Assembly (NCBI RefSeq): GCF_019802125.1
Contig: NZ_JAHVHT010000001.1
Span: 744,001-808,000, forward strand
DNA: 64,000 nucleotides
DNA from: Tateyamaria omphalii
Lineage (GTDB): Bacteria; Pseudomonadota; Alphaproteobacteria; Rhodobacterales; Rhodobacteraceae
Direction: 5' to 3'
The position numbers were made by a program, and so were the translations under genes. Shown here piece after piece: positions 30,628 to 35,916 of this stretch; position 1 is the first letter of the stretch; the number at the start of each line of letters is the position of its first letter. The notes below the pieces were generated by a model. It did no database searches. It was not told where the DNA came from and saw only the letters and a list, made by a program, of their open reading frames with translations.

Positions 30628-31578
30628 TTAACTGTTTTGAAGGGTTTGGCCGCCGGGCGGCTCTGTTTGCTGACGCAAAGACGCCCGCCCGCCGACCCTG
30701 TTCGCGAGCGCGGGCCAGAGCTTGTCGGGGTTGCGCATGGTGTACATCCAGCAGATTTGGCCGTGTCGGTTCAACGCCACAGTGAAGAGCGTATGTGCCA
30801 CGCCGTTGTCGGTCATCAAAAGGGCGGGGTAGCCATTCGCTGTGACGGGTACGGGGATCCGGGTGCTTGCGTGTTTCAGTGAGACCGCGTGCGAGACCAG
30901 GAGGATGTCGTCAGGACCGACGAGCGGGCGGCGGGCGGCGCGGGCCTTGGCCCCGCCATCGGAGATCGCGATGGCGTCGTCCGAGAGGTACGCCTTGGCC
31001 GCGTCAAGGTCGCCCGTGGCGATGGCGGCGAGAAAGCCGCTGATCTGGGCGGCGCGTTTGCCTGCCGGTTGGGTGAGGTCCGGGGCGGATTGCGCGATGC
31101 GCCGGTGGGCGCGGCTGACGAGCTGGCGGCAGGCGGCTTCGGATTTTCCCAGCGTGTCCGCGATGTCGGCATAGGACGCATCGAAGGCTTCGCGCAGGAC
31201 AAAGGCTGCACGTTCACTGCTGGGCAGCGTGTCCATCATCCAAAGGAGCGCGAGTTCGCAGTCCTGGGCTTGGGCAAAGCTGTCCTCGGCTGTGTGGGTG
31301 TCGACGATCAGCGGTTCGGGCAGCCAAGGGCCCACATAGGTTTCGCGCCGCGCCTTGGCCCGGCGCAGGCTGTCGATGGCCACGCGCGTGGCGGCGGTGC
31401 GTAGCCATGCGGCGGGGGTGCGGATGGCGGCGTGATCGGCGGTGGACCATTTGAGCCATGTGTCCTGTACCGCATCCTCGGCCAGTCCCCGTTCGCCCAG
31501 CATCCGGTAGCACAGGGCCGTAAGCATCGGCCGCTGTGCTTCGAACTGTTCGGTCCACTGTGTCTGTGGCCACGTCAT
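30628..31578 (-). CDS. ECF41-type (SigJ-like) sigma factor with C-terminal SnoaL-like domain
   Basis: The 316-residue protein has a sigma-2 region (residues ~10-75; TALCYRMLGERGLAEDAVQDTWLKW) and sigma-4 (~115-165; LPSSERAAFVLREAFDASYADIADTLGKSEAACRQLVSRAHRRI). A ~110-residue SnoaL/NTF2-like extension then runs to the end. This architecture defines the ECF41 group, whose extension controls activity in place of an anti-sigma factor. ECF41 genes commonly lie next to a carboxymuconolactone decarboxylase-like gene, as here; the two overlap by 4 bp. I set the start at 31578. The inducing signal is unknown. Confidence 0.88.
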   Translation of the reverse strand: MTWPQTQWTEQFEAQRPMLTALCYRMLGERGLAEDAVQDTWLKWSTADHAAIRTPAAWLRTAATRVAIDSLRRAKARRETYVGPWLPEPLIVDTHTAEDSFAQAQDCELALLWMMDTLPSSERAAFVLREAFDASYADIADTLGKSEAACRQLVSRAHRRIAQSAPDLTQPAGKRAAQISGFLAAIATGDLDAAKAYLSDDAIAISDGGAKARAARRPLVGPDDILLVSHAVSLKHASTRIPVPVTANGYPALLMTDNGVAHTLFTVALNRHGQICWMYTMRNPDKLWPALANRVGGRASLRQQTEPPGGQTLQNS

Positions 31579-32123: not shown

Positions 32124-32503
32124 GGGTGAGACTCCTTGGGTTCTATTGAGGAAGCGATGGCGAGGCTTGTCCAGACCGGAAGCTGGAGACCTGCGAGGTT
32201 GACGAGGGCGATGGTGTCGAGCGGCACGCCGCGCTCGATCCACAGCAGGATGTGGAAGAGCGCGTGGAGCGCGGGCCATGCGAGCCCGACAAGCAGCACG
32301 GCACGTTGGCCCGTGCGGCAGCCATGCAGAACAGCGAGCCCGCTGACCGCGAAGATCAGGACGATGTCGCGGATGAAATGCAGGTTGAACGGCCCCATGG
32401 CCGCGACGCCCGGTGTCAGCCTGTACCAGCTGAGCGGGGCCGCCCACATGAGGGCCGAGGTGATCAGGAAGTAGGCTCCGACGAGCCAGAGAATGCGCAC
32501 CAT
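32120..32503 (-). CDS. small four-helix membrane protein in the ECF41 unit
   Basis: The 127-residue protein has four hydrophobic segments (about 4-24, 40-60, 70-92, 103-123) with polar turns WYRLTPG and RTGQRA. It is translationally coupled to the CMD gene by a 4-bp overlap. AGGAACC lies upstream of the ATG at 32503; a longer frame from 32563 is possible. I do not recognise a family. The arrangement membrane protein-CMD-sigma suggests a role in the stress response controlled by the sigma factor, but this is inference. Confidence 0.6.
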   Translation of the reverse strand: MVRILWLVGAYFLITSALMWAAPLSWYRLTPGVAAMGPFNLHFIRDIVLIFAVSGLAVLHGCRTGQRAVLLVGLAWPALHALFHILLWIERGVPLDTIALVNLAGLQLPVWTSLAIASSIEPKESHP

Positions 32504-32587
32504 GTCTTTGGGTTCCTGTTGTTGTCGGAACTTGTGACGGCTGGGCGCTGCGGGATGTGACATGCCCGCGCGATTTTTTGGGTGCTG

Positions 32588-32880
32588 AAAAAGAAAAAGC
32601 GGCGATCCCAGGGAGGAGGAGGGGATCGCCGCCGTCTTGATGCCCGCCGGTCAGGGAGGAGGAGGACCGGATCGGACACATCTGGTGCACCGTTTGGTGC
32701 GGTATTCGCGCGACGACATCCGGGAGGAGGTGAATGCCGCCGCTCTTGCAACATCGCGTCGGTCAGGGAGGAGGAGGACCGGGGTGCGATGTATCGCTTT
32801 GTTCAAAGTGCGGCGGCGCCAGGGAGGAGGAGGGCGCCGCCGCCAATTTCAGATGCCCTCAGGGAGGAGGAGAGGGCGAT
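32588..32880 (-). ncRNA. CcsR-like small RNA array (six stem-loops with C-rich loops)
   Basis: Read on the minus strand, the region is a run of hairpins whose loops read CTCCTCCTCCCT. Stems (plus coordinates): 32855-32860/32872-32877; 32810-32820/32833-32843 (11 bp); 32760-32764/32777-32781; 32699-32707/32732-32740 (larger loop with CCTCCTCCC); 32647-32652/32665-32670; 32599-32609/32622-32632 (11 bp). This order starts next to the DUF1127 gene stop. The layout matches the R. sphaeroides CcaF1-CcsR1-4 locus, where stress-induced RNAs with a CCUCCUCCC loop follow a DUF1127 gene. Here there are five clear units and one diverged unit. The C-rich loops are complementary to ribosome-binding sites. 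Confidence 0.85.
32591..32632 (-). terminator. terminator of the CcsR-like transcript
   Basis: The last hairpin GCGGCGATCCC/GGGATCGCCGC (11 bp) is followed on the minus strand by TTTTTCTTTTT (32588-32598). It is both an array unit and an intrinsic terminator. Confidence 0.8.
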
Positions 32881-32897
32881 CTGATCTCGTGTGTTCC

Positions 32898-33128
32898 TTA
32901 GGCCGCCACGTCCTGTGCCGATTCCCATGCCACGCGCTTGAGTTCCGACCGGTGCAGGCCCAGATCGGCCAGTTCGCGGTTGGACAGGGCGTTCAGCTCG
33001 GTCAGCGTGGTGCGGTAGACGCGCGCCTTGGCGCGGCGCTCTGCGGCGGCTTCGAATACGCGTGCAGCGGTGCCCAGGATGCGTTCAACCAGGTCGCTGC
33101 GCTGTGCTACATCGTTGTAATAGGCCAT
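32898..33128 (-). CDS. ccaF1: DUF1127 protein, CcaF1-like RNA-binding protein
   Basis: The 76-residue basic protein ends with the DUF1127 core: TLTELNALSNRELADLGLHRSELKRVA. That motif, rich in Arg and preceded by a helical segment (VERILGTAARVFEAAAERRAKARVY), binds RNA in characterised members. In R. sphaeroides the CcsR RNAs are processed from the 3' UTR of this gene, and the CcaF1 protein influences sRNA levels. Here the CcsR-like array begins 20 bases after the stop. I set the start at 33128; the frame further upstream crosses the promoter. The name is by locus similarity. Confidence 0.85.
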   Translation of the reverse strand: MAYYNDVAQRSDLVERILGTAARVFEAAAERRAKARVYRTTLTELNALSNRELADLGLHRSELKRVAWESAQDVAA

Positions 33129-33160
33129 GTTTTTTGCCTCATGCTCATTTCGTTGATGGT

Positions 33161-33188
33161 TATATAGGCCTATGCTGCACCTGCACAA
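33161..33188 (-). promoter_or_regulatory. candidate heat-shock-type (RpoH) promoter of the DUF1127-CcsR unit
   Basis: On the minus strand TTGTGC (33183-33188), a 14-bp spacer and CCTATATA (33161-33168) resemble an RpoH -35/-10 pair. An inverted repeat (CAATGCTGC/GCAGC-A-ATTG) lies just upstream at 33201-33222. The homologous locus in Rhodobacter is under RpoHI/RpoHII control, which supports but does not prove this reading. Confidence 0.45.
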
Positions 33189-33345
33189 TGGATACCAAAT
33201 CAATGCTGCCATGCAGCAATTGCATAGACCCTGAGTTGAATTCGGCGGCAGTGTGCACACGAATGCGGCGTTTGCGTCCAGTTGGTCGGCGGGGCCTTGC
33301 CACTGGTGAAAATACTGCCATCTCTCGCATCACAAAGCGGAGAGA

Positions 33346-34422
33346 ATGAGCATGTCGATATCCAAGGATCACATCATGGAAGCGCTGGCCCGGATCGGCA
33401 TGCCGGACGGCGGAGACCTTGTCAGCCGCGATTTGATTCGTGCCGTGCAGGTGCAGGGCGACGCCGTGCAGTTCGTGGTCGAGGCGCCGACGCCGGAGCT
33501 TGCCGCCCGGATGGAGCCGGTGCGTGCCGCCGCCGAGGCGGCCGTGAGGGGTATAGCCGGTGTGGGTGAGGTGCGCGTCGCCCTGACCGCCCATGGGCCC
33601 GCCAGTAAACCGCCGCCGCCCAGCCTGAAGATCGGAGGCCATCCGAAGCCGCAGGAAGGGCCTGCAAAGCCGGTCGGCGTGCAAAGGATTGTGGCCATCG
33701 GGTCCGGCAAAGGTGGTGTGGGCAAATCCACGGTGTCGTCGAACCTTGCCGTGGCGCTGGCCAAGCAGGGCCGGAAGGTCGGGTTGCTGGATGCAGATAT
33801 ATACGGTCCCAGCCAGCCCCGCATGATGGGCGTGAACAAGCGCCCCGCGTCGCCGGATGGCAAGACCATCATTCCGCTCCACGCTCATGGTGTGACGCTG
33901 ATGTCCATCGGGTTCATGCTGGAGGAGGGCAAGGCCGTTGTTTGGCGTGGCCCGATGCTGATGGGCGCGTTGCAGCAGATGCTGGGGCAGGTGGAGTGGG
34001 GCGAGCTGGATGTGCTGCTGGTCGATCTGCCGCCGGGGACGGGGGATGTGCAGTTGACCCTGTGTACCAAGTCCGAACTGTCGGGGGCCATTGTCGTGTC
34101 GACGCCGCAGGACGTGGCACTTATTGACGCCCGCAAGGCGCTGGACATGTTTGCGACGTTGAAGACGCCTGTGCTGGGGCTGATCGAGAACATGTCGATG
34201 TTTGTGTGCCCCGACTGTGGGTCGGAACATCAGATCTTTGGTCAGGGTGGCGTTGCCGCGGAGGCCGGCAAGCTGGGTGTGCCGCTGCTCGGTGCGCTGC
34301 CGATTGATCTTGAGACCCGGCTGGCCGGGGATGGGGGGACGCCCATTGCCGCCGGGGACGGGCCGATGGCGCAGGCCTATGCCCGGATTGCGGAGGGGCT
34401 TATCAAGGGCGGGATGGCCTAG
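33346..34422 (+). CDS. apbC: Mrp/NBP35-family Fe-S cluster carrier ATPase (ApbC)
   Basis: The 358-residue protein has an N-terminal MIP18-like (DUF59) domain (1-82) and a P-loop ATPase domain. The deviant Walker A GKGGVGKST lies at 121-129. It has the C-x-x-C pair Cys288/Cys291 (CPDC), which bridges a [4Fe-4S] cluster between two subunits. It delivers Fe-S clusters to apoproteins. RBS GGAGAGA precedes the ATG at 33346. Its stop overlaps the convergent membrane protein gene stop in CTAG (34419-34422). Confidence 0.92.
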   Translation: MSMSISKDHIMEALARIGMPDGGDLVSRDLIRAVQVQGDAVQFVVEAPTPELAARMEPVRAAAEAAVRGIAGVGEVRVALTAHGPASKPPPPSLKIGGHPKPQEGPAKPVGVQRIVAIGSGKGGVGKSTVSSNLAVALAKQGRKVGLLDADIYGPSQPRMMGVNKRPASPDGKTIIPLHAHGVTLMSIGFMLEEGKAVVWRGPMLMGALQQMLGQVEWGELDVLLVDLPPGTGDVQLTLCTKSELSGAIVVSTPQDVALIDARKALDMFATLKTPVLGLIENMSMFVCPDCGSEHQIFGQGGVAAEAGKLGVPLLGALPIDLETRLAGDGGTPIAAGDGPMAQAYARIAEGLIKGGMA

Positions 34423-35427: not shown

Positions 35428-35629
35428 AGTGAGGCGAGGGAGTGCCGTTGCACAATATATTGTGTCTATTGATGTGTGGGTAACATCATAATCCACCAAA
35501 GTGGTCAAATTCGCTACAATATGTTGTTTTTCAAGCATCGCAAAAACAAGCTGTAGTATGTAGTGCCCTCAAAAAACCATTGCGTCCCATGTTTTCCCAC
35601 GTCATACCTAATGACATCAGATGAGAACG

Positions 35630-35830
35630 AGCACGGGGCACAAAACGACCCCAAGCAAAAACAAAACTCTAGCAGGTTTCATACAGGCACCTCGCTTTCA
35701 TCAGACCAGAGATCCGGCGCGCGAGCGAGCAGACATCCCCCCAGGTGGCGCGCGCAGCTGGACATCCCGCGAGGCGGGACGAGGGCGGCGGGTTGATCAG
35801 TGGCAGCAGATCAACCCGCCGTTTCATTTC
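35630..35830 (+). ncRNA. UpsM-like small RNA in the mraZ 5' leader (5' end not defined)
   Basis: The mraZ leader contains hairpin TCCCGC-GAG-GCGGGA (about 35765-35779) and a terminator-like hairpin at 35786-35821 about 90 bp before the mraZ start. In Rhodobacter the dcw cluster has an uncommonly long leader from which the sRNA UpsM (about 200 nt) is made by premature termination. Position and structure match. The 5' boundary given here is an estimate. Confidence 0.5.
35786..35830 (+). terminator. premature terminator in the mraZ leader
   Basis: GGCGGGTTGATC (35787-35798) pairs perfectly with GATCAACCCGCC (35809-35820), extended by C35786-G35821, followed by the T-rich TTTCATTT. The 13-bp stem ahead of the dcw genes would allow attenuation of the cluster. 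Confidence 0.75.
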
Positions 35831-35916
35831 AGGGTCCCGACAAGAGGGCTGCGGTGACTGGGGAACGAATTTGAAGCGCGGGGGCGCGACGGAAAGATAA
35901 GGGACGGGCCAAACAA

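Follow-up and report, generated by a model that had tools for sequence, protein, structure and literature searches.

The window, i.e. the whole 64,000-nucleotide stretch of DNA that was analysed, carries on its minus strand a CcaF1-like DUF1127 gene of 76 amino acids (32898-33128; Pfam PF06568, E 9.2e-12). Thirteen nucleotides separate its stop codon from the first stem of an array of six hairpins, which lie 3' of the gene on the same strand (32884 to 32598) and all carry CCTCCTCCC in the loop (loop starts 32870, 32830, 32774, 32730, 32662 and 32619). The original prediction, made from the letters of the sequence, had described six stem-loops that come after a DUF1127 gene on one strand, and both the Pfam match and the fold (z -7.58) bear it out. 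The six array copies of the CCTCCTCCC 9-mer are the only ones in the 64-kb window. Five of the loops extend to the longer CTCCTCCTCCCT, and unit 4 carries the variant CACCTCCTCCC, as expected from the earlier description of five near-identical loops and a diverged one. The 4.49-Mb genome has nine copies of CTCCTCCTCCC, of which five belong to the array, and the reversed control also has nine, so that the clustering is unusual, not the number.

All six CCTCCTCCC motifs fall in predicted hairpin loops when the 301-nt array stretch is folded. This stretch reaches -135.4 kcal/mol, compared with -98.0 +/- 4.9 kcal/mol for 100 shuffles, none of which was as low. Motif and fold together define, on the minus strand, unit 1 (32849-32884, predicted loop TCCTCCTCCCT) and unit 2 (32810-32843, predicted loop CTCCTCCTCCCT) as the A-type and B-type hairpins of pair 1, unit 3 (32748-32797) and unit 4 (32710-32743, predicted loop ACCTCCTCCC) as those of pair 2, and unit 6 (32598-32633) as the B-type hairpin of pair 3, which is probably also the terminator stem. 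Unit 5 (32638-32680, minus strand), the A-type hairpin of pair 3, was placed by the fold and is the weakest alone. When the flanks were shuffled, the observed energy was reached in 0, 0, 1, 0, 19 and 0 of 200 cases for units 1 to 6, which makes unit 5 weak if taken singly. The fold also predicts another, small hairpin that lacks the motif (GCACC-AAAC-GGTGC; 32687-32700, minus strand) between units 4 and 5, and thus between pairs 2 and 3, which is kept in only part of the genus alignment. Unit 6 runs into a T-rich tract (32588-32598, minus strand), the probable transcript end, and the proposal that the last hairpin doubles as a terminator is thus probably right. This hairpin is absent from the output of a terminator pattern scan, whose loop range was 3-8.

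The bigger loop that had been ascribed to the diverged unit was not recovered: the predicted loop of unit 4 is smaller, with 10 nt, than the 11-12 nt of the other five. Its variant is common to nine other species of the genus and is therefore an old one. Regarding the stems, the claim that they differ while the loop is kept holds between units. Within the genus, however, the stem of each unit is kept by position (10 of the 19 arrays aligned), with paired changes in unit 2, for example from GGCGCC/GGCGCC to GGCGTC/GACGTC, so the stems are constrained too.

Loop conservation in close relatives, named as a test in the original prediction, was found in 19 of the 20 genus species, where paired loops lie behind the same gene in all 19. 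In 19/19 genus loci, the array comes after a matching open reading frame, recognized by its sequence motif. All 98 genus loops pass a simple hairpin test, with a mean energy of -21.0 against -10.9 with shuffled flanks, 28% of which reach the energy of the weakest real hairpin. Six-frame open reading frames overlap the array region on both strands, as would suit hairpins that arose by chance or belong to a coding or mobile DNA-level repeat devoid of RNA function. This reading is hardly credible in view of the fold score of -7.58, the paired stem changes, the paired loops that follow the same gene in the 19 species and the position of the terminator.

The distances from loop to loop are 40, 56, 44, 68 and 43, and this alternation of short and long spacing is also present in named relatives. 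Furthermore, a GGCGGCG-type 5' arm is common to units 2, 4 and 6, and units 1, 3 and 5 are without it. Spacing and arm together suggest that the array consists of three two-hairpin units. The locus belongs to the CcaF1-CcsR (CIN1, cuckoo RNA) kind. It resembles the CcaF1 (RSP_6037)-CcsR1-4 operon of Rhodobacter sphaeroides (RS0680a-d; CIN1 locus) in its DUF1127 gene, its same-strand two-hairpin units with CCUCCUCCC loops, its terminator and its candidate TTG/TAT-type promoter. The homology proposed at the outset thus stands, based on the DUF1127 gene and the CCUCCUCCC-loop hairpins downstream of it. As in the cuckoo RNA family or alpha-r14 (NfeR1; SmelA075, SmelA099), several hairpins share the same anti-Shine-Dalgarno loop on differing stems (PMC10746234, PMC3927594). 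The cuckoo motif is described as 2-4 hairpins (PMC4504443), with three in SmelA075 and four in SmelA099, whereas here three pairs, as judged by the spacing, follow a protein gene.

The array had also been called an expanded version of the R. sphaeroides locus with extra copies, and this did not hold. In R. sphaeroides, four CcsR RNAs follow ccaF1 (PMC10253847), and two hairpins are described for RS0680a (PMC3927594), so about eight hairpins are to be expected there from the printed descriptions. The six hairpins of the window form three units, fewer than the four CcsR RNAs. The expanded reading fails because hairpins here were set against RNAs there. Besides the unit number, the variant loop of unit 4 distinguishes the present array.

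The size of the array is typical for the order. The pair pattern CCTCCTCCC-N16-45-CCTCCTCCC, which overlooks arrays with shorter loops, was found in 262 of the 292 genomes. Three pairs, as in the window's genome, are the median, with 124 genomes having more and 126 fewer; these are whole-genome counts that include chance matches in some genera (reversed control up to 6). Within the genus, nine genomes have 6 loops, four have 5 and six have 4, all lower bounds since they were counted by the exact 9-mer. Among the matches listed, 67 of the 68 named loci with a DUF1127 protein have at least two loops. Here the median is 6, the largest count is 14, and exactly 6 loops are the commonest number (27/68); R. 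sphaeroides is not among these listed matches. Copy number therefore does vary among relatives, from 4 to 6 in the genus and up to 23 elsewhere, as had been suspected, but the window's array is of median size. The variation would suit an expanded R. sphaeroides-type array whose new copies add targets or dosage. We consider this very improbable, as two hairpins are described for RS0680a in a set of four CcsRs, six loops are more frequent than any other number in the listed named loci, and 124 of the 292 genomes have more pairs than the window's genome.

Very large arrays were seen behind one DUF1127 gene in four genomes, with 20 (L047, G015), 23 (L048, G152), 17 (L049, G222) and 15 (L050, G144) hairpins, and their repeated sub-units look recently duplicated. 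In the genus g8 (L311, L312, L313), the arrays have shorter loops, mostly TCTCCTCCC by eye. Such arrays escape the pair pattern, so that the count of array-less genomes in the order is too high. The Rfam covariance search that had been suggested gave no match to the array: at gathering score (release 15), only a tRNA in the window reached the threshold, a result whose bearing on alpha-r14 depends on the library having such a model. The plasmid collection gave no long array match and three records with partial matches, two of which (L309, L310) show a pair of loops where they match and are devoid of the operator pattern. No match was found when the phage collection was searched with the array.

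The most informative part of the locus is a promoter element that was absent from the original prediction. Box 1 (ATGCAATTGCTGCATGGCAGCATTG; 33201-33225, minus strand), containing TGCTGCATGGCAGCA (33204-33218) and CTGCATGGCAG (33206-33216), is a putative PhaR-type operator. Box 2 (TTGTGCAGGTGCAG; 33175-33188, minus strand) is a second TGC-rich site and overlaps the -35 position of a candidate RpoHI/RpoHII-type promoter (33162-33188, minus strand), made up of TTG (33186-33188) and CTATAT (33162-33167). The spacing of TTG and TAT roughly fits this type, as judged from sequence alone. The R. sphaeroides RpoHI/HII consensus has TTG at -35 and TAT at -12 (PMC10673084), and Box 2 therefore overlaps a probable heat-shock-type promoter. 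No sigma-70-like site was found in 32400-33400.

Box 1 is strongly conserved. In 19/19 genus loci, ATGCAATTGCTGCATRGCAGCATTG is kept with few changes, and 23 of its 28 columns are invariant. The mean column identity is 0.95, compared with 0.64-0.75 in the preceding 40 bp (ungapped) and 0.86 in the first 60 nt of the open reading frame. Across the genus, TTGTGCANNNGCAG of Box 2 starts 28-29 bp after Box 1, and in most loci CTAT or TTAT then follows.

PhaR is a repressor that leaves DNA for PHB granules, and its published site in R. sphaeroides is CTGCNNNGCAG (PMC12542648), which CTGCATGGCAG in Box 1 matches exactly. A phaR gene is present in the window's own genome (PF07879, E 1.3e-27), and the PhaR family was found in 23/23 other genomes checked; presence or absence of the gene is thus useless as a test. 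The genome has three TGCTGCANNGCAGCA sites, located at ccaF1, in the phasin promoter between phaC and phaP, and at one other place (gene names by eye). Six copies of TTGTGCANNNGCAG were counted, compared with two in the reversed control. Throughout the 4.49-Mb genome, the two motif types, TGCTGCANNGCAGCA and TTGTGCANNNGCAG, come together only in the promoters of ccaF1 and the phasin gene phaP. As a separate observation, the third TGCTGCANNGCAGCA site (L277, C3:246281) lies between lytic transglycosylase-like and glutamine synthetase-like genes (by eye) and is a possible further PhaR target.

The phaP promoters of the genus offered a second line of comparison. Two GCN3GC-type palindromes are located 5' of phaP in 20/20 genus genomes. 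A matrix was built from the phaP promoters of the other 19 species, with the own genome left out for the window ranking and included for the wider loci; the matrix cut excluded one phaP site, at -117 (G302). With this matrix, the ccaF1 site is the top hit among the 63,986 positions of the window, and it also ranks first in 19/19 genus loci. The likeness extends to the TGC-rich GCN3GC palindromes themselves, with TTGTGCAGACGCAG in the own-genome phaP promoter. However, phaP has two palindromes 27-29 bp apart, and ccaF1 has one palindrome plus Box 2. The score of the ccaF1 site is also slightly under that of the lowest phaP site (17.49 vs 17.98 bits), and the ccaF1 site, unlike the phaP sites, has a fixed centre (ATA/ATG) and extra conserved flanks. 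These three properties mean that another regulator could own the site.

Control of an sRNA gene by PhaR has a precedent in Sinorhizobium meliloti, where PhaR (AniA) represses mmgR (alpha-r8) and its site CAATTGTGCACCGCAGCATTA was shifted efficiently (PMC12542648). This site lies between -35 and -10 (PMC8401924). Both mmgR and the present locus are sRNA genes with a PhaR dyad, putative in the present locus, of near-identical sequence, and Box 2 of one genome (G292), CCATTGTGCACCCGCAGCATTG, is nearly the same as CAATTGTGCACCGCAGCATTA, with one more central base. In contrast to the present array, mmgR is a single 77-nt RNA of another family, and the available text on mmgR mentions no DUF1127 gene with it.

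Alternatively, the array would be of the CcaF1-CcsR type, but Box 1 and Box 2 would belong to another DNA-binding protein or make up an extended RpoH promoter that includes an activator site, and PHB would have no part. The fixed, non-palindromic centre of Box 1, the conserved bases beyond the PhaR palindrome, and the position of Box 2 across -35 would all fit such an arrangement, and R. sphaeroides ccaF1 is described as RpoHI/HII-driven (PMC10253847). The exact CTGCNNNGCAG in Box 1, the top rank with a phaP-derived matrix, the two motif types common only to ccaF1 and phaP in the own genome, and the mmgR precedent all argue against it. We give this alternative appreciable weight, yet hold it to be the less probable one. 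Binding of the ccaF1 promoter by PhaR itself is the reading we favour, with some reservation, and PhaR, and hence PHB status, probably helps to control this CcsR-type RNA operon.

A literature search for a link of PhaR to CcsR, CcaF1 or DUF1127 found no such statement among the papers listed, of which, by whole words, PMC9230146 alone has both PhaR and DUF1127; the main CcsR papers were beyond its reach. Likewise, the accessible descriptions of the R. sphaeroides CcaF1-CcsR locus mention no PhaR-type operator. What is new here is the conserved putative PhaR-type operator, while the array itself appears as one more ordinary member of a known family.

The operator can be followed well beyond the genus. 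In total, 101 wider loci were examined; 14 without a recognized DUF1127 core were left out (87), and four duplicates were dropped (83). The best matrix site of the locus falls in the promoter region, about 6% of the sequence, in 66 of these 83 loci, and outside it in the other 17. The Box 2 pattern is present in 81 and the strict Box 1 pattern in 65, and wherever both match the box-to-box offset is 26-27 (63/63). The joint element CTGCATNGCNGC-N10-18-TTGTGC-N4-5-GCAG was detected in 83 of the 121 order genomes, representing 42 of the 59 genera, with 0 in the reversed control. It occurs once in 81 genomes and twice in two, and in its exact form it is absent from 38. In 14 genomes both positions were listed, and in 13 of them the element is directly before the array; in the remaining one (G057) it is before another DUF1127 gene.

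Ten stretches were read that had no array by the first pattern, an element apart from the array, or two elements in the genome. All 11 element instances in them lie at most 340 nt upstream of a DUF1127 gene, and Pfam confirms 10/10 proteins. By eye, three of these instances first drive a free-standing two-hairpin RNA, three (g8) precede arrays with mostly TCTCCTCCC loops, three precede arrays with the usual loops, and two have no array. As every instance read is before a DUF1127 gene, the element marks the CcaF1-CcsR-type locus and stays with this gene even without hairpins. We consider it marginally favoured that, across Rhodobacterales, the CcaF1-CcsR operon is part of the core PhaR regulon, in which carbon storage and heat or oxidative stress would converge on one promoter and release a general translation-damping RNA array.

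Several of these loci are noteworthy in their own right. In three genomes (L314, G036; L315, G107; L320, G070), the operator is first followed by a two-hairpin RNA that stands free, has a terminator-like end of its own and immediately precedes the DUF1127-array unit (by eye). In L320, this unit has a second copy of the joint element (by eye). Two other loci (L317, G057; L318, G050) have a DUF1127 gene with a full operator and no hairpin array. Either the RNA part was lost there, or the first role of the operator concerns the protein.

Taken as a whole, we are confident that the locus is best explained as a CcaF1-CcsR-type RNA with a stress promoter, anti-Shine-Dalgarno loops and a probable PhaR gate. 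A stress-type promoter would give one minus-strand RNA, consisting of the ccaF1-like mRNA and, on its 3' side, three two-hairpin units of the CcsR or cuckoo sRNA type, ending at the terminator. The units would be freed by RNase E with help from the DUF1127 protein, by analogy with relatives, for which processing by RNase E and CcaF1 is described, as is Hfq. Background on this family is given in PMC3927594, PMC10253847, PMC10746234 and PMC8307010. From what is printed on relatives, the CUCCUCCUCCCU loops would mimic the 16S anti-Shine-Dalgarno sequence and pair with GA-rich ribosome-binding sites, and translation would be lowered. When PHB is absent, PhaR would sit on the Box 1/Box 2 operator; accumulating PHB would draw it to the granules and thereby release the operon.

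The target search was restricted to full 9-base matches before ATG. Outside the array, the genome has six sites with the full complement, compared with one in the reversed control, and four of the six lead into frames of at least 148 aa (L084-L087), in which no common theme was recognized by eye. Nor was a convincing CcsR loop complement seen by eye at the phaR or phaP ribosome-binding sites. With few extended matches at start codons, many near-identical loops and very large arrays in some relatives, the hairpins may mainly be a general sponge, sequestering free ribosome-binding sites or stabilizing the 3' end under stress instead of acting on specific mRNAs. Specific effects of the CcsRs are described in R. 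sphaeroides, on the flhR mRNA, the glutathione pool and the pyruvate dehydrogenase complex (PMC8307010), and these render the sponge function unlikely as the main one.

The preferred reading, a CcsR-type RNA gated by PhaR, also has a metabolic side. Since the R. sphaeroides CcsRs affect the pyruvate dehydrogenase complex, CcsR RNAs could curb the acetyl-CoA supply, and once released they would hold it back. A loop of this kind, with CcsR released by accumulating PHB and the acetyl-CoA supply lowered as a result, is a tentative idea, and we rather doubt it. The accessible literature presents the R. sphaeroides CcsRs in terms of stress (RpoH) regulation. With a PhaR operator, these RNAs would be linked to PHB storage. 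If true, such an operator predicts when CcsR RNAs are made without stress and suggests why CcsR touches the pyruvate dehydrogenase complex, a source of the PHB precursor acetyl-CoA.

Similar hairpins were also encountered in viruses. Six IMG/VR viral contigs (L178, L189, L190, L192, L204 and L214) contain elements of two hairpins, both with CCTCCTCCC in the loop, that look much like a single CcsR unit; often the first hairpin is weaker and the second strong. Among the matches listed, 37 of 80 viral stretches passed the hairpin test, a figure that stands without a shuffled control. The elements in L178 and L190 had no match among named phages, and the proteins tried beside a further element (L182) gave no match. 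Genes of phage type near the viral elements include an antirepressor (L189), an S24-type repressor (L190), CII/CP76 (L204), a YqaJ exonuclease (L214), Pam3 gp34 (L178) and a sliding clamp (L192). Phages may make anti-Shine-Dalgarno RNAs of their own.

Two further features of the window lie outside the array. A protein with sigma-70 regions 2 and 4, an ECF-type sigma factor by eye, is encoded near the array on the minus strand (30628-31527). On the plus strand, the intergenic region 35456-35916 (z -2.93), before MraZ-like and RsmH-like genes (by eye), contains a strong terminator-like hairpin.
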